Shown here: positions 32,817 through 58,193 of the stretch, piece after piece
How the letters are laid out: each line of letters begins with the position of its first letter
How positions within the stretch are numbered: position 1 is the first letter of the stretch
Assembly: GCA_040882465.1 (NCBI GenBank)
Contig: JBBEBG010000009.1
Span: 62,001 to 126,000, forward strand
Source: Gemmatimonadota bacterium
Lineage (GTDB): Bacteria; Gemmatimonadota; Gemmatimonadetes; Longimicrobiales; Gaopeijiaceae
Length of the DNA stretch: 64,000 bases
Direction: 5' to 3'
Made by a program: the position numbers and the translations under genes
The notes under the pieces: model-generated
Told to the model about the DNA's origin: nothing
Seen by the model: the letters and a program-made list of their open reading frames with translations, nothing else
Database searches by the model: none

Positions 32817-33548
32817 ATGGTAGAGCTCAACCTCCTCCTCGCCGTCCTGGGGGGCGTCGTGAGCTTCCTCTCGCCCTGTGTCCTGCCCCTGGTTCCGGCT
32901 TACGTGACGTTCATCACCGGGGCGAGCCTCGACGAGCTCACCGACTCCAACCGCAAATTTTCGCCCGAAGTCCTGAGACACGCGCTCCTGTTCATCGCGG
33001 GATTTTCGCTCATTTTTGTTCTGATGGGCGCCTCCGCGAGCTTCATCGGGGGATTCCTCATCACCTCACGCCGCGTGTTCGAGGTCGCCGGCGGGATTTT
33101 CCTCGTCCTCTTCGGGCTTCTCCTTTCGGAGATCGTGAAGCTTCCGTGGGCGATGCGCGATTGGCGCGTCCACATGAAGGATCGCCCGGCGGGAAATCTC
33201 GGAACGCTCTTCGTGGGGATGGTCTTCGCCTTCGGATGGACCCCCTGCATCGGACCCATCCTCGGAGGCATTTACACCCTGGCCGCCGGCGAAGAGACTC
33301 CGGGGCGCGGAATGCTTCTTCTCGGGGGTTACTCCTTCGGACTCGCGCTTCCCTTCGTCCTGGCCGCCGTCGGCCTCTCCCGCTTCCTCACGCTTCGACG
33401 CCGCATCGGACCGTGGCTCCCCTGGATTCAGAGGGTGAGCGGAATCGCGATGGTGATCTTCGGGGCCCTCCTTATCACCGGTCAGTTCACCCGGATCGCC
33501 GCGGCGCTGGCTCAGGTCACCCCGGACTTCCTCCTGCGTTGGATGTGA
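32817..33548 (+). CDS. ccdA: CcdA-type thiol-disulfide transporter
   Basis: A 243-aa six-helix membrane protein of the CcdA/DsbD-gamma family. It carries the redox cysteines C21 in FLSPCVLPLVPAY and C144 in FGWTPCIGPILGG. CcdA moves electrons from cytoplasmic thioredoxin to periplasmic thiols, keeping apocytochrome c reduced for heme ligation. The ATG at 32817 follows GAGGTGACCCG. It lies 248 bp upstream of the first of three heme-bearing exported proteins, so a role in their maturation is likely though not shown. Confidence 0.92.
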   Translation: MVELNLLLAVLGGVVSFLSPCVLPLVPAYVTFITGASLDELTDSNRKFSPEVLRHALLFIAGFSLIFVLMGASASFIGGFLITSRRVFEVAGGIFLVLFGLLLSEIVKLPWAMRDWRVHMKDRPAGNLGTLFVGMVFAFGWTPCIGPILGGIYTLAAGEETPGRGMLLLGGYSFGLALPFVLAAVGLSRFLTLRRRIGPWLPWIQRVSGIAMVIFGALLITGQFTRIAAALAQVTPDFLLRWM

Positions 33549-33796: not shown

Positions 33797-35149
33797 ATGC
33801 AAGACGGAACGACGCGCCGCTGGAGCTGGTCGCAGCTCCGGTACTCGGCCCCGGTGATCGCGCTGCTCGCGGTATTTGCGCTGCACGGGGAGGCGTTTTC
33901 CACGGAGCACGCTCAGGATCCCGACGACGAGGATGTGACCTTTACGAAGGACGTCGCCCGGATTCTCCAGGAGAACTGTCAGGTTTGCCATCAGCCCGGC
34001 TCGATCGGGCCCATGGCGCTGATGACCTATGATCAGGTTCGTCCGTGGGGGGCCGTGATCAAGGATCGGGTAGTCCATCGCGAGATGCCGCCCTATCAGT
34101 ACGACACCGATGTCGGCGTGCAGGATCTCAAATACGATCCCCGGATGAGCGACGAGGAGATCCAGGCCATCGTGGCCTGGGTGGACAGCGGGATGCCGAT
34201 GGGTGACCCGGCGGACATGCCCCCGCCCGCCGTTTGGCCCGATCCGTCCGAGTTCCGCCTCGCCGAGCGATTCGGCCGCGCCCCCGACGTCATCGTGACT
34301 TCGACGCCTTACGACGTGCCCGGGATCGGCCAGGACCGCTGGTGGCAGCCGACCGTCGAGACGGGGATCACCGAGGACCGGTGCATCATGGCGATCGAGA
34401 CCAAGCCCGCGGTCGCGGCGCGCATGGTGACGCACCACGCCAACTCGTACTTCAGCGTGAATGGCCGTCAGGCCGCGATGCTCTCGGAGTTCGCGATCGG
34501 GAAGATCGGCGAGATCGTCCCCGAGGACGCTTGCCGCACGGCACCCGCCAACTCGCAAGTGAGTTGGGACATTCACTACTGGCCCAACGGCGAGGACATC
34601 GACGACGCCGTCGTCCAGATCGGGATCTGGTTTTACCCCGCCGAGCGCGAAGTCGAGACCTACCGGCAGGACCTGACGCTCTATATGCTGAGCGGCGGAG
34701 TCGGCGGACGGGGTTACGACATCGCTCCGCACGGCACGCTGATGACGCAGGGCTTCCGGAGCTTCAACACTCCGGTCCGCATCGACAGCTTCCAGCCGCA
34801 CGGACACACCCGGCTGGTCGCCATGTCGCTCCAGATTCTTCGAGCCAATGGCCGTCTCGAGATGGTCAGCATGGTTTCGAACTGGAACGCGCTCTGGCAC
34901 CACAGCCACATCTATCAGGATCACGCATCGCCGCTCCTCGCCGTCGGCGACCAGCTTGTCCTGACCGGTTGGTACGACAACACGGCCAACAACCGTTACA
35001 ACCCTGACCCGGATCAATGGGTCAGCATCGGGGACCGAACGGCGGACGAGATGTCGCACGCGTGGCTCGCGGTGACGCATCTCGATCAGGAAGGATACGA
35101 GGAGATTCTGGCCGAGCGTCAGGCGCAGACGACGCCCACGACCGACTGA
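33797..35149 (+). CDS. A1: exported cytochrome c / PHM-like copper monooxygenase
   Basis: A 450-aa fusion protein and the first of three tandem paralogues. An N-terminal signal or anchor (hydrophobic core VIALLAVFALHGEA, about residues 20-33) precedes a class I cytochrome domain with CQVCH at 61-65 and a likely axial Met97 in REMPPYQ. The rest matches the catalytic core of peptidylglycine alpha-hydroxylating monooxygenase (PHM): CuH ligands H213, H214 (THHANS) and H260 (DIHYW); CuM ligands H335, H337 (PHGH) and M419 (ADEMSH; DEM as in PHM). PHM hydroxylates C-H bonds with copper, O2 and a reductant. Here the fused heme may donate the electrons. It has a clear GAGGAG site; B1 follows 165 nt later. 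Confidence 0.8.
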   Translation: MQDGTTRRWSWSQLRYSAPVIALLAVFALHGEAFSTEHAQDPDDEDVTFTKDVARILQENCQVCHQPGSIGPMALMTYDQVRPWGAVIKDRVVHREMPPYQYDTDVGVQDLKYDPRMSDEEIQAIVAWVDSGMPMGDPADMPPPAVWPDPSEFRLAERFGRAPDVIVTSTPYDVPGIGQDRWWQPTVETGITEDRCIMAIETKPAVAARMVTHHANSYFSVNGRQAAMLSEFAIGKIGEIVPEDACRTAPANSQVSWDIHYWPNGEDIDDAVVQIGIWFYPAEREVETYRQDLTLYMLSGGVGGRGYDIAPHGTLMTQGFRSFNTPVRIDSFQPHGHTRLVAMSLQILRANGRLEMVSMVSNWNALWHHSHIYQDHASPLLAVGDQLVLTGWYDNTANNRYNPDPDQWVSIGDRTADEMSHAWLAVTHLDQEGYEEILAERQAQTTPTTD

Positions 35150-35204
35150 GAGCCGGCCGGCTCTCCCTTGGCCCTCGGAGCGTGCCAGGAAAAGGGGGCA
35201 GTGA

Positions 35205-35243
35205 TCGGGGGAGCCTCTCCAGTGGCACTGGGGGGGCTCCCTC
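35205..35243 (+). terminator. Possible weak terminator between A1 and B1
   Basis: A GC-rich stem (GGGAGCC at 35208-35214 with GGCTCCC at 35235-35241) encloses a smaller CCAGTG/CACTGG hairpin, but there is no U-tract, so transcription may read on into B1. Confidence 0.25.
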
Positions 35244-35314
35244 GTTTACCTTCAGTGGTCTGAGGCGGACAAGTAAAGAGAAGTGGTGGCGGTTTCATCA
35301 TGAAGGAGATTCGA

Positions 35315-36385
35315 ATGACCAGGATTCGTTTGGCCCTTGGCGGTGCGACCGTCGCCTTGATAGGGCTGAGTGCTCTACCCCTTCAGGCGCAGGACTGGAC
35401 GCAACGCGAATTTCCGTTGGCGCCCAGCAATTCCTCGGGGAACTTCGTCGCTCCGTACTTCGACGGGTGGTACCTGAACGAGGACGGCTCGTACACGATG
35501 GTCTTCGGTTTCATGAACCGGAACGCCGATGATCTCGTCGAGATCCCCCTGGGACCGAACAACTTCATCGAGCCGGCGATCTATGACGGAGTGCAGCCCA
35601 CGTCCTTCCCCGTGGTGAGCTACGGTGGCTTTGGCGGACCGCGCGAGCGCGGGGTATTCGCCGTCGTCGTCCCCGCGGACTTCACGGGCGACGTTTGGTG
35701 GCACCTCACGACGGGTGACTATTCGACGAAGGTTCCGGGTAGGCTCTATTCCCCGGGGCCGGTTATCAAGGGAGCCTACGAGCTCAGCACCACCCCGATG
35801 GCCGAAGGGTCCATGCGACCCCTGGTCGGCTTCTCCCCAGACAACACCTCATGGGGACCGCTCGGAGTCTGGGCGCCCGAGACGTACCGGACCTCCGTCG
35901 GCGAACCGATCGCGGTCACCGTGTGGGCGTACGACCGCGGCGACCGCGAGCTCCGAGACGTGAACATGACGCTTTGGAAGTACCAGGGACCGGTCGGGGG
36001 ACAGATTTCATTCGTCTCCATGGTCGAACCCCCGCCACCTCCTCCTCCCGCGGAGGCTGAGCCTTCCCCCGCCGGTGGTGCGGATGCAGCCGCGGCGGGC
36101 GGTCGTGGCGGCGCGGCTCCTGGGGGCGGGGCCGCGGCGGGCTTCGGAGGGCGCGGCGGCGCACAGAATCTGGGGGGGCCCGTGGGACCGCTCACGCCGC
36201 AGCAGCCGGTCCGCATTCCGTTGCAGGGAACGGCGCCGAACCAGGGCAAGTTCTCGGCGGCCTTCGACATGCCCGGCGAATACGTCATCCGCGTTCGGAT
36301 CGACAACTTCACCTCCGGCGACAGTTCGGCGGGGAACCAGTGCTGCTGGTCGAACGCCTACGTTCGGGTAGTGGTCACCGAATAG
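35315..36385 (+). CDS. B1: exported protein of unknown function, CCWSN family
   Basis: A 356-aa exported protein and paralogue of B2. The signal peptide is residues 1-26 (VALIGLSALPLQAQ). Shared with B2: FPLAP near the mature N-terminus, then DGWYLNEDGSYTMVFGFMNRN, a RGVFAV... strand, a Gly-Pro-Met block, and a final CCWSNAYVRVVVT with C343 and C344. Beta-sandwich folding is likely. Residues about 238-300 form a Pro/Ala/Gly-rich insert absent in B2. The start at 35315 follows AAGGAG at 35303-35308 with 6-nt spacing, which decides it over an ATG at 35300. Its place between the copper enzymes suggests a partner, substrate or regulator; no known family was recognised. Confidence 0.7.
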   Translation: MTRIRLALGGATVALIGLSALPLQAQDWTQREFPLAPSNSSGNFVAPYFDGWYLNEDGSYTMVFGFMNRNADDLVEIPLGPNNFIEPAIYDGVQPTSFPVVSYGGFGGPRERGVFAVVVPADFTGDVWWHLTTGDYSTKVPGRLYSPGPVIKGAYELSTTPMAEGSMRPLVGFSPDNTSWGPLGVWAPETYRTSVGEPIAVTVWAYDRGDRELRDVNMTLWKYQGPVGGQISFVSMVEPPPPPPPAEAEPSPAGGADAAAAGGRGGAAPGGGAAAGFGGRGGAQNLGGPVGPLTPQQPVRIPLQGTAPNQGKFSAAFDMPGEYVIRVRIDNFTSGDSSAGNQCCWSNAYVRVVVTE

Positions 36386-36436
36386 GTTCGGGTCGGTTTC
36401 CGACCCAAGAGTTGTGAGAGCCAAAAATTGTGAGAG

Positions 36437-36467
36437 AAGGGGCCCTCCGCCCACCGGAGGGCCCCTT
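36437..36467 (+). terminator. Intrinsic terminator after B1
   Basis: A 13-bp GC-rich stem (36437-36449 with 36455-36467) with a 5-nt loop. A short T-rich tail (TTCTT) follows. It ends the A1-B1 unit 51 nt after the B1 stop. Confidence 0.7.
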
Positions 36468-36555
36468 TCTTGCAGGGAACGATTTTGAAGGAGCGGGGAC
36501 GGGCGTGTTCGGCCCCGCGGGACCCCCGGGGCGCACCAAGGGCCAGGGACAACTC

Positions 36556-36585
36556 TTGACGGGCCCCGGACAGGCGCCACAGAAT
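36556..36585 (+). promoter_or_regulatory. Candidate promoter of A2
   Basis: TTGACG (36556-36561), an 18-nt spacer and CAGAAT (36580-36585; 4 of 6 bases fit). It lies between the B1 terminator and A2, leaving about 90 nt of leader, and supports A2 as a separate unit. Confidence 0.4.
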
Positions 36586-36682
36586 ACATAGGTCGGGGTA
36601 TGAAGGTTGTACCACTCGCGATCCGCTATTGCGGGCGCCGCTCGCAGCTGTGGGTCGCCGTCACCAGCCTAAGGAGTGGAAC

Positions 36683-38014
36683 ATGAACGATCATCGGTTG
36701 AGCGCTTTGCTTGGCCGGGGGCTCTGGGCGGGATTGGTGGCTTTTGCGCTGGTGGGACTCCCCGTCCTTCAGCAAGAAGCCCTCGCTCTCGATCCGGGAG
36801 ACGACGAGGATGTGACGTTCACCGCGGACATCGCCCTGATCCTCCAGGAGAACTGTCAGGTCTGCCACCAGCCGGGCTCGATCGGTCCGATGGCGCTGAT
36901 GACCTACGAACAGGTTCGCCCCTGGGGCGCGGTGATCAAGGAGCGGGTGGTACATCGTGATATGCCTCCCTACCAGTACGACACCGACGTCGGTATCCAG
37001 GAATTGAAGTACGATCCCCGGATGAGCGAAGAGGAAATCCAGACGATCGTGGCGTGGGTGGACAACGGGATGCCGATGGGTGATCCCGCCGAAATGCCCC
37101 CGCCCGTCGAATGGCCCGATCCGGCGCAGTTCCGCCTGATCGAGCGGTTCGGCCGCGCGCCCGACTTGATCGTTCGCTCGACGCCTTACACGGTGCCCGC
37201 CATCGGCCAGGACCGTTGGTGGCAGCCGGTCGTCGAGACCGGGCTCACGGAGGATCGCTGCATCATGGCGATCGAGACCAAACCTTCGGTGGAAGGGCGG
37301 ATGGTTACTCACCACGCCAACTCCTCCTTCCGGGTGGAAGGCGGCGCCGGTGGCCGGCTCTCCGAGTATGCGATCGGGAAGATCGGTGAGATCATCCCGG
37401 AGGGCGCCTGCCGCACCGCGCCGGCGAACTCTCGGGTGGGCTGGGACATCCACTATTGGCCGAACGGCGTCGAGATCGTGGACGCGACGGTCGAGATCGG
37501 AATCTGGCTCTATCCGGAAGACTACGAGGGCACCTACCGCCAGACGCTGAGCCTTTACGGGCTCCAGGGCGGCCGGGGCTTCGATATCGCGCCCCACGGG
37601 ACGCTGATGACCCAGGGCTTCCACGGATTCGATACTCCGGTCCGGATCGATTCCTTCCAGCCGCACGGGCACACCCGGCTGGTGGCGATGTCCATGCAGA
37701 TCCTCCGGGCTAACGGCCGCCTCGAGATGGTCAGCATGGTCTCGAACTGGAGCGCGCTCTGGCACCACAGCCACATCTATCAGGACCATGTGGCGCCCCT
37801 CCTCGACGTGGGCGACAAGCTCCTGTTGACGGGGTGGTATGACAACACCGCGAACAACCGGTACAACCCGGACCCGGACCAGTGGGTGGGAATCGGCGAC
37901 CGGACTGCGGACGAGATGTCCCACTCGTGGATCGCGGTGACTCACCTCGACCAGGAAGGGTACGAGAAGATTCTGGCCGAGCGTCAGGCTCAGGCGACGC
38001 CCACGACCGACTGA
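36683..38014 (+). CDS. A2: exported cytochrome c / PHM-like copper monooxygenase
   Basis: A 443-aa second paralogue, very close to A1 throughout. It has a signal peptide with hydrophobic core WAGLVAFALVGLPVLQ and heme motif CQVCH at 58-62. The predicted copper ligands are H210, H211, H257, H328, H330 and M412 (ADEMSHSW). The last six residues, ATPTTD, match A3. Ligand conservation indicates an active enzyme; the substrate is unknown. The ATG at 36683 follows AAGGAG (36671-36676); an in-frame start at 36629 lacks a ribosome site. It is flanked by the B1 terminator and its own terminator at 38105, so it is probably transcribed alone. Confidence 0.8.
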   Translation: MNDHRLSALLGRGLWAGLVAFALVGLPVLQQEALALDPGDDEDVTFTADIALILQENCQVCHQPGSIGPMALMTYEQVRPWGAVIKERVVHRDMPPYQYDTDVGIQELKYDPRMSEEEIQTIVAWVDNGMPMGDPAEMPPPVEWPDPAQFRLIERFGRAPDLIVRSTPYTVPAIGQDRWWQPVVETGLTEDRCIMAIETKPSVEGRMVTHHANSSFRVEGGAGGRLSEYAIGKIGEIIPEGACRTAPANSRVGWDIHYWPNGVEIVDATVEIGIWLYPEDYEGTYRQTLSLYGLQGGRGFDIAPHGTLMTQGFHGFDTPVRIDSFQPHGHTRLVAMSMQILRANGRLEMVSMVSNWSALWHHSHIYQDHVAPLLDVGDKLLLTGWYDNTANNRYNPDPDQWVGIGDRTADEMSHSWIAVTHLDQEGYEKILAERQAQATPTTD

Positions 38015-38030
38015 GCTGGACCCGGCAACT

Positions 38031-38103
38031 GGCCGTCGGCCCTTAGGCTGGAACCGGCGGCAGGCTTGGTGACGGAGTTGCGCTGAGGAAACTCGGCGCG
38101 AGA
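38031..38103 (+). repeat. 3'-flank repeat copy 1 (after A2)
   Basis: About 75 bp starting GGCCGTCGGCCC and ending TGCGCTGA...GGCGCGAGA. It matches the block at 39691-39765 after A3, aligning with a single-base gap for most of its length. It shows that the duplication that made A2 and A3 extended past the stop codon. Confidence 0.7.
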
Positions 38104-38104
38104 G

Positions 38105-38142
38105 ACTGGGAGGCTTCCAACCGGGGGCCTCCCAGTTTTTTT
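38105..38142 (+). terminator. Intrinsic terminator after A2
   Basis: A 10-bp stem (38105-38114 with 38127-38136), a 12-nt loop and an uninterrupted run of seven T (38136-38142). It is a strong rho-independent terminator between A2 and A3. Confidence 0.9.
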
Positions 38143-38170
38143 GCCTCCTTCTGACCTTTGAAGAATTTTG

Positions 38171-38200
38171 TTGACTTTTGGGCCCTTGCAGCCCCATTTT
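38171..38200 (+). promoter_or_regulatory. Candidate promoter of A3
   Basis: TTGACT (38171-38176), an 18-nt spacer and a weak CATTTT -10 (38195-38200). The position right after the A2 terminator supports it more than the -10 match does. Confidence 0.3.
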
Positions 38201-38311
38201 GCCTTAGGATTCCGTGCGGCGCCTGGAGGCCCCTGAGGGGCATTTCGCGGGGTCGGGCACGCTGGTACGGCGCATCGATGATTCATGGACACCCGTCCCG
38301 GAGAGCGCGAC

Positions 38312-39673
38312 ATGCAACACACCACGCCCCCGTGTGATTCGTGGCTGAGTGGATGGACCCGACTTTCCATTCTGGCCCTTCTCGCGGTCTTGGCCCTTCC
38401 GGGTTCCGCCCTGGCGGCGAACGATCCCGGTGACGAGGTGATTACCTTCACGAAGGACGTGGAGCGCATCCTCCAGGAAAATTGTCAGGTCTGCCATCAG
38501 CCGGACGCGATCGGACCGATGGCCCTGACGAGCTACGAGGAAGTCCGGCCTTGGGCGCCCCTCATCCGTGAAGCGGTGCTGAGCCAAAAGATGCCCCCGT
38601 ATCAGTACGATACCGGGGTGGGGATTCAGGAGCTCCAGAGCGACATGCGCCTGAGCCGAGAGGAGATCGAGACCCTCGTGGCCTGGGTGGACGCTGGCGC
38701 GCCGCAGGGCGACCCCGCGGACGCTCCACCGCCCGTCGCCTGGCCGGATGCGGCGGCATGGGGTTACGTGGACTTGTACGGACCTCCGGACATCATTGTT
38801 CGCTCTGCGCCCTTCGACATCCCGGCCAACGGCCAGGACACCTGGTGGCGGCCGACGGTGGACACCGGCATCACCGAAAGCCGGTGCATGCGGGCAATCC
38901 AGACGAAGCCCGTCCTCTCCGGACGCGCGATGACGCACCACGCGAACTCCGTCTTCGTCATGCCGGGTGATGCGGATGCGTCGGACGACGACGATGGCGC
39001 AGCATCGCAGGGCGGCCGGCTCTCCGAATACGCGCTCGGGAAGCTCGGGGAGATTATTCCGGAAGGCGCATGCCGGACCGCGCCCGCGGGATCTCAGGTT
39101 CGGTGGGACATCCACTATTATCCGAGCGGAGTCGACGTCGAAGATCATGTCGTCGAGGTGGGCATCTGGCTCTACCCCGAAGACTACGCGGGAAGCTACC
39201 GCCAAGATCTCCGGACCTACGGTCTGCAGGGCGACATTGACCTCGCTCCGGGCGGAACCGCGATGACGCAGGGATTTCACTCCTTCGACCATCCGGTTCG
39301 GATCGACAGCTGGCAGCCGCATGGCCACTTTCGAATGGTCGCGGGGTCCCTCGAGTTCTTCTATCCGGAAACGGGACGGCGCGAGCTCATCAGCATGGTG
39401 AGCCGGTGGACTGCTCTCTGGCACCATAGCCACGTGTACGACGAAGACGTTGCGCCCCTCCTCCCCGCAGGCGCTGTGATGGTCCTGACCCAGTGGTACG
39501 ACAACACCGCCAATAACCCGATCAACCCCGACCCGACGGTCTGGGTCGGCCGGGGATCGCGTACCACGGACGAAATGTCCCACAACTGGATCGCGGTCAC
39601 GCACCTCGACCAGGAAGGGTACGAGCGGATTGTCGCGGAGCGTGAGGCGAAGGCCACGCCCACGACGGACTGA
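38312..39673 (+). CDS. A3: exported cytochrome c / PHM-like copper monooxygenase, divergent
   Basis: A 453-aa third paralogue and the most divergent of the three. The signal peptide (residues 14-35) ends in GSALA. The heme motif CQVCH is at 58-62. All predicted copper ligands are kept: H209, H210, H268, H337, H339 and M422 (TDEMSH). It differs from A1 and A2 by an acidic insert (DASDDDDG at about 222-229) between the HH and H ligands, and by loss of the His in the IAPHGT loop (LAPGGT). The ATG at 38312 has GGAG upstream; another in frame at 38285 lacks one. B2 follows 209 nt later with no strong terminator between. Confidence 0.78.
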   Translation: MQHTTPPCDSWLSGWTRLSILALLAVLALPGSALAANDPGDEVITFTKDVERILQENCQVCHQPDAIGPMALTSYEEVRPWAPLIREAVLSQKMPPYQYDTGVGIQELQSDMRLSREEIETLVAWVDAGAPQGDPADAPPPVAWPDAAAWGYVDLYGPPDIIVRSAPFDIPANGQDTWWRPTVDTGITESRCMRAIQTKPVLSGRAMTHHANSVFVMPGDADASDDDDGAASQGGRLSEYALGKLGEIIPEGACRTAPAGSQVRWDIHYYPSGVDVEDHVVEVGIWLYPEDYAGSYRQDLRTYGLQGDIDLAPGGTAMTQGFHSFDHPVRIDSWQPHGHFRMVAGSLEFFYPETGRRELISMVSRWTALWHHSHVYDEDVAPLLPAGAVMVLTQWYDNTANNPINPDPTVWVGRGSRTTDEMSHNWIAVTHLDQEGYERIVAEREAKATPTTD

Positions 39674-39690
39674 CCCGGAACTCACGCGGG

Positions 39691-39765
39691 GGCCGTCGGC
39701 CCGTAGGCCGAGACCGGCGGGCAGGGGTTGTCAAAAGTAGTGCGCTGAAAAGAGTTGGCGCGAGA
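39691..39765 (+). repeat. 3'-flank repeat copy 2 (after A3)
   Basis: The partner of the block at 38031-38103. The first 30 bp agree at 26 positions and the last 25 at 20, as counted by eye. Confidence 0.7.
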
Positions 39766-39882
39766 ATCACCGGTGGGGATCGGAGCCCTCTTTATCTGAC
39801 AGGCAGAGAGAGGACTTCGGTCCCCACAGCCTTTTCGACTGAACCATCGCACGCCCACAACACTGAAATGCTGGAGGAGTCG

Positions 39883-40740
39883 ATGTCCATCCGCCCGGCC
39901 GCCCGGGTTTCCGCCGCCACCCCGGCTCTCGTCTTCGCGCTCGCCGTTTCGGCCGCAACGGTGGAGGCCCAGCAGCCGGCCTTTCCCCTCGCACCCAATC
40001 CTCCGACGGGACTCACGGTTTCGCCCTTCTTCGAAGGATGGTTCGCGAACCCCGACGGGACCTTCGACGTGTCACTCGGCTACTTCAATCGGAACTCGCG
40101 CGAATCGCTCTACATCCCGAGGGGACCGGACAACTTCATCGTCCCCGCGGAGTTCGACGGGTTCCAACCCGAGCACTTCCCGCCCCGTCGGGTCCGGGGG
40201 GTCTTCACCATCACCCTCCCGGCGGAGATGGTGGAGGCCGGACAGCGGGTCACCTGGACTCTGATCAACCGCGGGGACACCCTCTCCGTCCCCGCCGGCG
40301 CGCGCATTCTCTCGTACGAGCTCGCATATGGGCCGATGGCCATGGGCTCCCTTCCGCCCGTCATCCGATTCGAGGCTGGAGGCGAGGGAGGACGGGGGCC
40401 GCGAGGGATTATGTCGCCGATGACCTTCCGTGCGACGGCGGGTGCCCCGCTCACGTTGCGGCTCTGGGCCACTGACGAGTCCATGCGGGCGACCGGCGCT
40501 AGCTTCCCCGTAGGCGTCTCGTGGGTGACCCACCAGGGGCCGGCGGTCGCCACCTTCACGGACGAGGTGATGACCGAAGAGCCGGGAGGAGGCGAAGCCA
40601 CGGTCACGGTCACCTTCAGCGAGCCTGGTGAATACGTCCTCCGGGCGCAGGCCGACAACTTCGACGCTCCGGACAGCGGGGCCGGCGACCAGTGTTGTTG
40701 GTCGAACGGCTATTATCGGGTGACCGTCACCCCGGAATAG
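39883..40740 (+). CDS. B2: exported protein of unknown function, CCWSN family
   Basis: A 285-aa paralogue of B1 with a signal peptide at residues 1-30 (VFALAVSAATVEAQ). It shares FPLAPN, EGWFANPDGTFDVSLGYFNRNSRE, a RGVFTITLP strand and GDQCCWSNGYYRVTV at the end (C271, C272). It lacks the Pro/Ala/Gly-rich insert of B1, which suggests that the insert is not needed for the core fold. The ATG at 39883 follows GGAGGAG; an ATG at 39868 is less good. It probably shares a transcript with A3. Function unknown. Confidence 0.7.
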   Translation: MSIRPAARVSAATPALVFALAVSAATVEAQQPAFPLAPNPPTGLTVSPFFEGWFANPDGTFDVSLGYFNRNSRESLYIPRGPDNFIVPAEFDGFQPEHFPPRRVRGVFTITLPAEMVEAGQRVTWTLINRGDTLSVPAGARILSYELAYGPMAMGSLPPVIRFEAGGEGGRGPRGIMSPMTFRATAGAPLTLRLWATDESMRATGASFPVGVSWVTHQGPAVATFTDEVMTEEPGGGEATVTVTFSEPGEYVLRAQADNFDAPDSGAGDQCCWSNGYYRVTVTPE

Positions 40741-55949: not shown

Positions 55950-58193
55950 ATGAGCGCAAACAGGTGGGTGGGCGGCATGGCGGCCACGGCGGGTGCGATT
56001 GCGATTCTCGTCGGTTGCTCCGAGCTCGGGGATGCGGGAGAGTCCGCTTCGCTCGTCGGTCTCGCAACGATCTCGACGCACCCGGACCGCGTGAGCGGAG
56101 GAGACGTTCTGGTCGAGGTGGTCGTGCCGGTCGATGCGGCGCGGTCCGCGGAAGGGGAAACCGGCACTCCCATCGCGGTCTTCGCGGGCGATCGCGACAT
56201 CTCGGAGGCCTTCCATGCCACGGACGGGCCCGGCCGTTTTGTCGGCCTCGTGACCGGCCTCCCCCTCGGAAAGAGCATGCTACGGGTGGATGGAGGGCCT
56301 TTCGACACCCCCGACGCGATGCTCGAAGTCACGAACTACCCGATGTCGGGCCCCATCGTGTCCGGTCCGCACATCCAACCCTTCATCTGTCAGTCCGAGG
56401 ACTTCACCCTTCCCGACGGAACGTCGCTCGGGGCGCCGCTCGACGAAAATTGCGCGGTCCCAACCGTGGTCCAACACGTCTTTCGCTCCGCGGCGACGGA
56501 TGAGTGGATGCCCCTCCCCGCCGGCGCGCCACTTCCGCGGGACGTGGCGATGACCACCACGACGGACGGCATCCAGGTCCCCTTCATCGTGCGGATCGAG
56601 ACCGGCCCGATGAACCGGGGAATCTACCAGAATGCCATTCTCCACAACCCACGGACTGATCGTGAGCCGACCCCCTTCTCTGCACCTCCCGCGTGGAATC
56701 GGCGGCTGATCGCGGTCCACGGCTCGGGATGCCCGACCGGATGGTACCGGCAGGGCGCCGCCATGGGTGTAAGTCCGCTCGGGGGCGCGAACGTGGCCCG
56801 ACTCGGCGAAGGGTATGCGGTCTTTACGAACACCCTCAACCACCCGACGAACTCCTGTAACGCCTTCCTCGCCGGCGAGACGACGATGATGGGGAAGGAA
56901 CGCTTCATCGAGACGTTCGGGGCGCCCGACTTCACGGTGAGCATCGGCGGTTCGGGGGGTGCCTACACGGGCCTCCAGGTCGCCGACGCCTTTCCCGGTC
57001 TCATAGACGGTGTGATCGCGACTTCCACCTTTCCGGACGCGCTCTCCATCGCGATCGCGGGGCTCGACGCCCACCTCCTGACCCACTATTTCGCGGCGAC
57101 GGAGCCGGGACGCTTCACCGACGAGCAGAAAGTGGCGATCACCGGGTACTCGGGAGTCGAGGCCTTCGAAGACGCGGCGAACCAGAGCCAGCGCACCGAC
57201 CCAGTCCCCGGGAGGGAAGACATCGAGGGGTACGTCTCCGCGCGCTGGCACGCCTCCATCCCCGAGGAGCTCCGTTATCACCCCGTCACGAATCCTGCCG
57301 GAGCGCGTCCCACCGTCTTCGACGCTGCGCGCAACGTCTACGGAGTCGACCCGGTGACCGGCTTCGCGCTACGTCCTTTTGACAACGTCGGCGTCCAATA
57401 CGGCCTCTCTGCCCTGAACACGGGCGCGATTACGCCGACCGCTTTCCTCGACTTGAATGAACAGATCGGCGGCTACGACGACGACGCCAACTACGTCGCT
57501 CCCCGCTCCTCGGGAGACGCCGGAGCGATCCGGCGCGCCTACCAGAGCGGAGTGACGCTCGGGGGCGGGGGCGGCCTCGCTGCCATCCCGGTCGTCGATG
57601 CGGGCGGATACAATGATACGCGGAGCTACCACTACCAGTGGTTCCACTTCGCCGTCCGCGAACGGATCCAGGCCTCGAACGGTTACTCCGACAACCACCT
57701 CTTGTGGCGGGGCTCCGTGCCGGCCAGCCAGACCTGGGGGGTCATGATGGATTGGCTCGCGGCTATCGCCGCCGATCCTTCGGATGACAGCGCCATGGAG
57801 AAGCTCCGGAGAAACCGCCCTGAACGAGCGGTGGACGGGTGCTGGATTCCGAGCGACATCGAGGGCGAGCCCGCCCGCTTCGTCGCGGAGCCGCAGACCT
57901 TTTCCAGCGAGCCCGGCACTCCCTGTAACGAGCGATTTCCGTCGTACTCGTTCACGCGTCGAGAGGCGGGCGGCCCGCTCCACGGAAATGTGCTCAAGTG
58001 TGCCCTCAAGCCCATCGCCGCGTCCGGCTACGACGTGACCTTCTCGGACGCCGAGTTGGCAAGGCTTCGCTCGATCTTCCCGGAGGGCGTCTGCGACTGG
58101 GCGCAGCCGGGCGTGGAGCAGACTCCGGTCGTCACCTGGGCCTCCTTCGGGCCCGCACCGGAGAATCTCGTCTACGACCTGACGGCGCCCTGA
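55950..58193 (+). CDS. DUF6351-like lipoprotein (putative esterase)
   Basis: A 747-aa protein with a lipobox Cys23 (ILVGCSE), followed by a long alpha/beta-hydrolase-like region with GGSGGAYTGLQVADAFPG (Ser335 as likely nucleophile). It resembles DUF6351 proteins related to tannases/feruloyl esterases by context. Later sequence includes WFHFAVRERIQASNG and disulfide-type cysteines (GCWIPSD, PCNERF, KCALKP, VCDWAQ). The substrate is unknown. It is 23 nt after the OmpA gene. Confidence 0.65.
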   Translation: MSANRWVGGMAATAGAIAILVGCSELGDAGESASLVGLATISTHPDRVSGGDVLVEVVVPVDAARSAEGETGTPIAVFAGDRDISEAFHATDGPGRFVGLVTGLPLGKSMLRVDGGPFDTPDAMLEVTNYPMSGPIVSGPHIQPFICQSEDFTLPDGTSLGAPLDENCAVPTVVQHVFRSAATDEWMPLPAGAPLPRDVAMTTTTDGIQVPFIVRIETGPMNRGIYQNAILHNPRTDREPTPFSAPPAWNRRLIAVHGSGCPTGWYRQGAAMGVSPLGGANVARLGEGYAVFTNTLNHPTNSCNAFLAGETTMMGKERFIETFGAPDFTVSIGGSGGAYTGLQVADAFPGLIDGVIATSTFPDALSIAIAGLDAHLLTHYFAATEPGRFTDEQKVAITGYSGVEAFEDAANQSQRTDPVPGREDIEGYVSARWHASIPEELRYHPVTNPAGARPTVFDAARNVYGVDPVTGFALRPFDNVGVQYGLSALNTGAITPTAFLDLNEQIGGYDDDANYVAPRSSGDAGAIRRAYQSGVTLGGGGGLAAIPVVDAGGYNDTRSYHYQWFHFAVRERIQASNGYSDNHLLWRGSVPASQTWGVMMDWLAAIAADPSDDSAMEKLRRNRPERAVDGCWIPSDIEGEPARFVAEPQTFSSEPGTPCNERFPSYSFTRREAGGPLHGNVLKCALKPIAASGYDVTFSDAELARLRSIFPEGVCDWAQPGVEQTPVVTWASFGPAPENLVYDLTAP

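Follow-up and report, generated by a model that had tools for sequence, protein, structure and literature searches.

The closest described relatives of the proteins treated here are peptidylglycine alpha-hydroxylating monooxygenase (PHM), whose core finishes peptide hormones in animals, and dopamine beta-hydroxylase (DBH); to our knowledge, the chemistry of both is known almost wholly from eukaryotic enzymes that use ascorbate. Here we analyzed a stretch of 64,000 nucleotides from a Gemmatimonadota bacterium (contig JBBEBG010000009.1, positions 62,001 to 126,000; called the window in what follows), in which positions 33797-40740 encode three predicted exported fusions of a cytochrome c domain with a PHM-like domain. 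An earlier reading of this DNA, made without database searches (the sequence-only reading), had described the interval as a tandem array of three such heme-copper fusions. The three fusions were confirmed, but the interval also holds two genes for another protein, which we call the partner (Table 1), and both this partner and the size of the family had been overlooked. We propose, with a probability of roughly 0.7, that the fusions are periplasmic dicopper monooxygenases in which a heme relay in cis replaces ascorbate, that they act with a dedicated partner protein and that they have been diversified by duplication. No described enzyme with this pairing had been known to the earlier reading, and we found none in one open-access library, a search that differently named Pfam families could escape. 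What is new here is the pairing with heme c, together with how large the clade is and a partner that looks obligate; the family is apparently undescribed.

Predicted fold and copper ligands

Each fusion carries a hydrophobic N-terminal stretch, called by eye as a signal peptide, and a single CQVCH, followed by THHA, WDIHY, PHGH and DEM motifs. The AlphaFold2 model of the second fusion (36683-38014), built with 68 homologues, had a predicted local distance difference test score (pLDDT) of 85.9 and a predicted template modelling score (pTM) of 0.83. When this model was compared with the PDB using Foldseek, the best 30 matches were all human DBH or rat PHM, and VIA-align gave a Z of 20.8 for human DBH (269 residues, 3.2 Å) and Z values of 15-20, most of them about 18-20, for PHM entries over approximately 245 residues. 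A match to an unrelated fold, which had been suggested as a check on the PHM-like assignment, was not what emerged: the next fold by VIA-align after DBH and PHM was that of PNGase F, long grouped with PHM, at a Z of only 8.3.

The six putative copper ligands, H210, H211, H257, H328, H330 and M412 (residue numbers here and below follow the 443 residues of the second fusion), are invariant in 68/68 homologues, among which most other His and Met residues vary. In every sequence of a set of 11 paralogues from the source genome and five distant kin they align with H107, H108, H172, H242, H244 and M314 of rat PHM, the PHM sequence used being identical to PDB 4e4z at 312/312 residues. In PHM, H107, H108 and H172 bind the copper called CuH, and mutation of any one of them yields an inactive enzyme (PMC6123673). 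The PHM-like identity that had been proposed is thereby supported by both structure comparison and ligand alignment, and the six residues named for the first fusion (Table 1) were the right ones. The ligands also stand in the order claimed, that of PHM, with a spacing that is comparable but not identical to it: 46-65 residues from H211 to H257 (64 in PHM), 69-87 from H257 to H328 (70 in PHM) and 82-83 from H330 to M412 (70 in PHM).

Intermediate sequences complete this evidence. Kin with the same CxxCH and PHM layout, of the kind that the sequence-only reading had suggested looking for in domain databases, exceed the Pfam Cu2_monoox_C cut-off of 23 bits (28.4, 26.1 and 29.1 bits), and one of them (L109) nears that of the Pfam family for the N-terminal domain of these monooxygenases (29.5 bits against 30). 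Because Cu2_monoox_C matches bacterial relatives, database entries without a function do exist, as had been anticipated. Searches of the fusions against NCBIfam and PHROGs gave no matches, and a direct sequence search of the PDB, whether from one window protein or from a profile of the 11 paralogues, found no PHM. Taken together, the predicted fold, the ligands and the intermediate sequences support the assignment of the fusions to the PHM/DBH copper type II monooxygenase superfamily.

Predicted heme c domain and partner protein

The features of a class I-like monoheme cytochrome c, namely CxxCH and a distal Met, are present in the fusions (68/68). In the 68-sequence alignment the CxxCH, M70 and M94 are invariant, and the distance from C58 to M94 is 36 in all sequences; matches of the window fusions to Pfam Cytochrome_CBB3 (E values of 1.5e-5 to 2e-3) fall under its cut-off. 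M94, which is part of an MPP motif, is probably a likelier axial ligand of the heme than M70, because it is kept in distant kin that have Phe in place of M70. C193 and C243 co-vary perfectly (Cys-Cys in 46 sequences and non-Cys pairs in the remaining 22; n = 68), as would be expected if the two formed a disulfide in a protein that is exported.

The two proteins encoded among the fusions contain no heme-copper fusion and are homologues of each other (39% identity), belonging to a family in which a Cys-Cys-Trp close to the C-terminus is invariant. Of the related loci examined, 69 contain a homologue, and the family occurs in 17/58 whole genomes of the same order. Within these 17 genomes, 80 of the 86 tabulated partner hits lie no more than 1.6 kb from a cytochrome c-PHM gene, on the same strand in 80/80 cases, the tabulated lists of fusion and partner hits being hand-curated with some short fragments left out. 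The gap between partner and fusion has a median of 126 bases between model matches, with the partner upstream in 26 cases and downstream in 54; five of the remaining six hits are on contigs without a tabulated fusion hit and one is at 11.7 kb. Copy numbers of partner and fusion across 34 genomes also follow each other (Spearman 0.81), and the association looks obligate. The structure of the partner is predicted with confidence (pLDDT 87.7). A structure search with its C-terminal domain returned generic Ig-like matches only, nothing specific turned up for its N-terminal domain, which was barely tested, and the window member searched had neither a Pfam family above the cut-off nor a sequence match in the PDB. 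We infer that the partner is most likely a dedicated subunit or a substrate or maturation factor. Adjoining the partner gene in some Gammaproteobacteria is a conserved protein of some 385 residues, exported and helical in appearance, without a Pfam match (L027:8377-9531 and ten similar open reading frames in nine other loci).

Family, duplication and neighbouring genes

A genome scan identified at least 542 confirmed relatives of the fusions. Among the matches listed, the metagenome-assembled genomes concerned are labelled as Gemmatimonadota, Gammaproteobacteria (many of them Pseudomonadales, Pseudohongiella), Acidobacteriota and one Acidimicrobiia; no relative was found in plasmid records. 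The source genome has 11 cytochrome c-PHM loci and one relative has 29 matches, while tandem arrays of up to five fusions occur in Pseudohongiella-type and other proteobacterial genomes (L047:1178-11471, L057:1421-8827). In the window, the second and third fusions share 78% and 58% identity with the first.

This duplication bears on the question of substrates. Positions 240, 316, 318 and 320 of PHM are its substrate contacts, with R240, N316 and Y318 touching the carboxylate of the peptidylglycine. The equivalents of these four positions differ between paralogues, the copper ligands being fixed, and the array proteins carry Q, H, W and A in place of R240, N316, Y318 and M320. Because the substrate contacts of PHM are absent from the three array proteins, peptidylglycine is an unlikely substrate for them. 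Since the pocket varies between paralogues while the copper ligands never change, the combination of a fixed copper core, a variable pocket and tandem as well as dispersed duplication suggests that several substrates are served.

Some members depart from the common architecture. A Redoxin/AhpC-TSA domain stands ahead of the CxxCH and PHM core in L110:1-1887 and L113:1435-3285 (minus strand), and an open frame at L104:1402-3282 (minus strand) joins a YceI-like domain to a Cu2_monoox_C match, with a CxxCH in frame. A subgroup of paralogues from the source genome itself (L006-L009, on contigs C17, C25, C41 and C11) ends in a C-terminal CPLC and is without the D/E before the CuM methionine.

The coordinates of the array and of other features are collected in Table 1. 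The three co-directional fusion frames have a coding-like GC content at third codon positions, and for the second fusion a start at ATG 36683 is more likely than one at TTG 36629. Genes of the CcdA and DUF6503 types upstream of the array were rejected as candidate parts of the module, as they are not kept beside relatives; a CcdA-type homologue was found in none of the flanks of the related loci examined, and this gene probably does not belong to the module as a constant member. On the 3' side of the array lies an unrelated VWA/DUF58/MoxR gene cluster on the opposite strand. Elsewhere in the window, positions 55950-58193 encode a DUF6351 tannase-like protein (E value of 9e-215). Near gammaproteobacterial arrays there is a GMC oxidoreductase with weak matches to pyranose oxidase and cholesterol oxidase (L065:8346-10007, with homologues in L047, L048, L057, L058 and L073).

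Table 1. Features of the fusion array in the window, and PAL-like propellers beside cytochrome c-PHM genes in loci of relatives
Feature	Location	Strand	Remarks
CcdA/DsbD_TM-type membrane protein (cytochrome c biogenesis family)	32817..33548	+	PF02683, E 3.7e-13; directly upstream of array
Cytochrome c-PHM fusion 1	33797..35149	+	450 aa; CQVCH 61-65, H213/H214/H260, H335/H337/M419
Partner protein 1	35300..36385	+	361 aa, predicted exported; C-terminal QCCWSN motif, Gly/Ala/Pro-rich insert
Cytochrome c-PHM fusion 2	36683..38014	+	443 aa from ATG 36683; listed open reading frame from TTG 36629
Cytochrome c-PHM fusion 3	38285..39673	+	462 aa; alternative in-frame start ATG 38312
Partner protein 2	39868..40740	+	290 aa; N-terminal beta domain and C-terminal Ig-like domain; invariant C276-C277-W278
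Propeller keeping all five PAL residues	L068:4711-5904		
Propeller keeping all five PAL residues	L084:4198-5316		
Propeller keeping all five PAL residues	L091:3527-4579	-	
Propeller keeping all five PAL residues	L123 (G033 C27:100340-101425)		

Mechanism, alternatives and known systems

Under the mechanism that we favour, the fusion would be exported to the periplasm, where its N-terminal monoheme cytochrome c, with H62 and probably M94 as heme ligands, would feed the copper sites single electrons in place of ascorbate, and cytochromes of the periplasmic pool would recharge the heme. If the sites work as in PHM, electron transfer would fall to CuH (H210, H211, H257), and O2 binding and hydroxylation of a C-H bond to CuM (H328, H330, M412). 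The partner would act in one of the roles given above, and the duplicated copies would serve several substrates, probably other than peptidylglycine. In PHM each copper accepts one reducing equivalent (PMC6123673). A heme c is a plausible donor of electrons to the copper domain. Copper and heme loading, monooxygenase activity, the electron route, the role of the partner and the substrate are all what we infer rather than observe.

Several results weigh against this proposal. Two of the window fusions reach only 12.9 and 12.3 bits with Pfam Cu2_monoox_C (cut-off 23) and the third is unmatched; comparison of profiles with rat PHM was weak and failed with the 68-row alignment, and was again weak (E value of 0.06) with the 11-row alignment, albeit with HxH and DEM in register. 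In addition, turnover of PHM and DBH takes two electrons and a single heme holds one. Since Pfam gives the window proteins at best sub-threshold matches, sequence alone would leave the PHM claim open; the kin do pass the cut-off, and what carries superfamily membership is the fold, the ligands and the intermediate sequences. Even if membership is accepted, the electrons could run the other way, which is the main rival to our proposal: the copper domain would oxidise or dehydrogenate a substrate, or handle a small molecule such as nitrite or NO, while the cytochrome c would export electrons to the respiratory chain, so that the PHM scaffold would carry a dehydrogenase or oxidase instead of a monooxygenase. 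Where a cytochrome c is fused to a periplasmic enzyme, it often serves as an electron exit, and periplasmic quinoproteins (read from N-terminal sequence only) and GMC oxidoreductases are encoded near some members. We nevertheless regard reversed flow as unlikely, given that the full dicopper ligand set of PHM is invariant, CuM Met included, and that such a set in known enzymes reduces O2 and hydroxylates C-H bonds. The same invariance bears on the view that the PHM fold survives as a module without catalysis, binding copper or heme for storage, sensing or electron transfer and hydroxylating nothing, a view in keeping with the high copy number, as often in binding or scavenging proteins, and with the lack of a known substrate. 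Lost catalysis would be expected to relax the two distinct sites, yet both are kept in 68/68 sequences, the weak CuM thioether among them, and the copies diverge at pocket positions as enzymes with different substrates do; such a module seems to us very improbable.

A further question is whether the array belongs to a longer pathway. In the PAM of eukaryotes, PHM is coupled with PAL, a zinc lyase of beta-propeller form (PMC6529398). The fusions and a PAL-like NHL-propeller lyase could form a comparable two-step pathway in bacteria, in which hydroxylation beside N (or O) would be followed by cleavage to an amide and a small oxoacid. NHL propellers encoded near members of the family match rat PAL over nearly its full length (3fvz, E value of 1e-45, in one stretch 61-353), they occur in the flanks of 13/79 loci, in some of them directly adjacent and co-directional (L068, L084), and their copy numbers correlate with those of the fusions across 34 genomes (Spearman 0.61). 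Equivalents of H585, Y654, H690, R706 and H786 of PAL, residues of its active site, are kept in 3/12 aligned neighbours and in one propeller from genome G033 (Table 1). Most propeller neighbours, in contrast, show a consistent pair of changes, Y654 to His and H786 to Glu. The NHL propeller is a common fold, genomes without a cytochrome c-PHM gene commonly carry PAL-like genes as well, and the copy-number correlation is explicable by shared ancestry and lifestyle. Adjacency within 6 kb in 12 Gemmatimonadota genomes was weakly enriched, with 13 cases observed against about 7.6 expected (a figure based on rounded genome sizes and ignoring contig ends). Moreover, the array proteins are without the peptidylglycine contacts of PHM and no PAL-like gene adjoins the array in the window. 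On the grounds of the adjacency figures and of the PAL-like genes found without a fusion, we rejected PAL-like neighbours as a fixed partner; the PAM-like pathway appears doubtful, and the pairing is best treated as a lead. Similarly speculative is the wider picture of a large bacterial clade of periplasmic dicopper C-H hydroxylases, driven by heme c of the same molecule and not by ascorbate, which, with a dedicated vicinal-cysteine partner and locally paired with PAL-like lyases, would act on small environmental molecules as a prokaryotic counterpart of PHM-PAL.

If heme c-driven hydroxylation by the fusions is true, they would represent a second way of feeding electrons to non-coupled dicopper sites, and heme spectroscopy on a single chain could track the long-debated electron-transfer step of PHM. 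They would also offer a natural store of secreted C-H hydroxylases that differ in their pockets, and a function would be at hand for hundreds of unnamed proteins of marine, estuarine, sponge- or coral-associated bacteria.

Compared with known systems, the fusions share with rat PHM (PDB 1PHM/1OPM) the predicted fold, the six copper ligands in order and an identical Asp-Glu-Met at the CuM methionine, whereas they are only about 14% identical to it, differ at the four contact positions discussed above, and are bacterial, exported proteins with an N-terminal heme c domain and a partner gene. DBH (PDB 4zel), the best structural match to the second fusion, likewise has an extra domain before its PHM core, but that domain is a DOMON and not a heme c domain with CxxCH, and DBH takes ascorbate and a catecholamine. 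Similar in layout are uncharacterised bacterial Cu2_monoox_C proteins, for example those with a redoxin domain (L110, L113), which have CxxCH followed by a PHM core with six ligands and score above the Pfam cut-off, but which differ by that added domain and by a far more distant sequence. The donation of electrons by a heme protein to a secreted or periplasmic copper enzyme has its parallels in the cytochrome domain of cellobiose dehydrogenase acting with LPMO and in NirK-cytochrome c fusions, although the copper folds of these systems are unrelated to that of the fusions, the heme of cellobiose dehydrogenase is of b type and the reactions are others.

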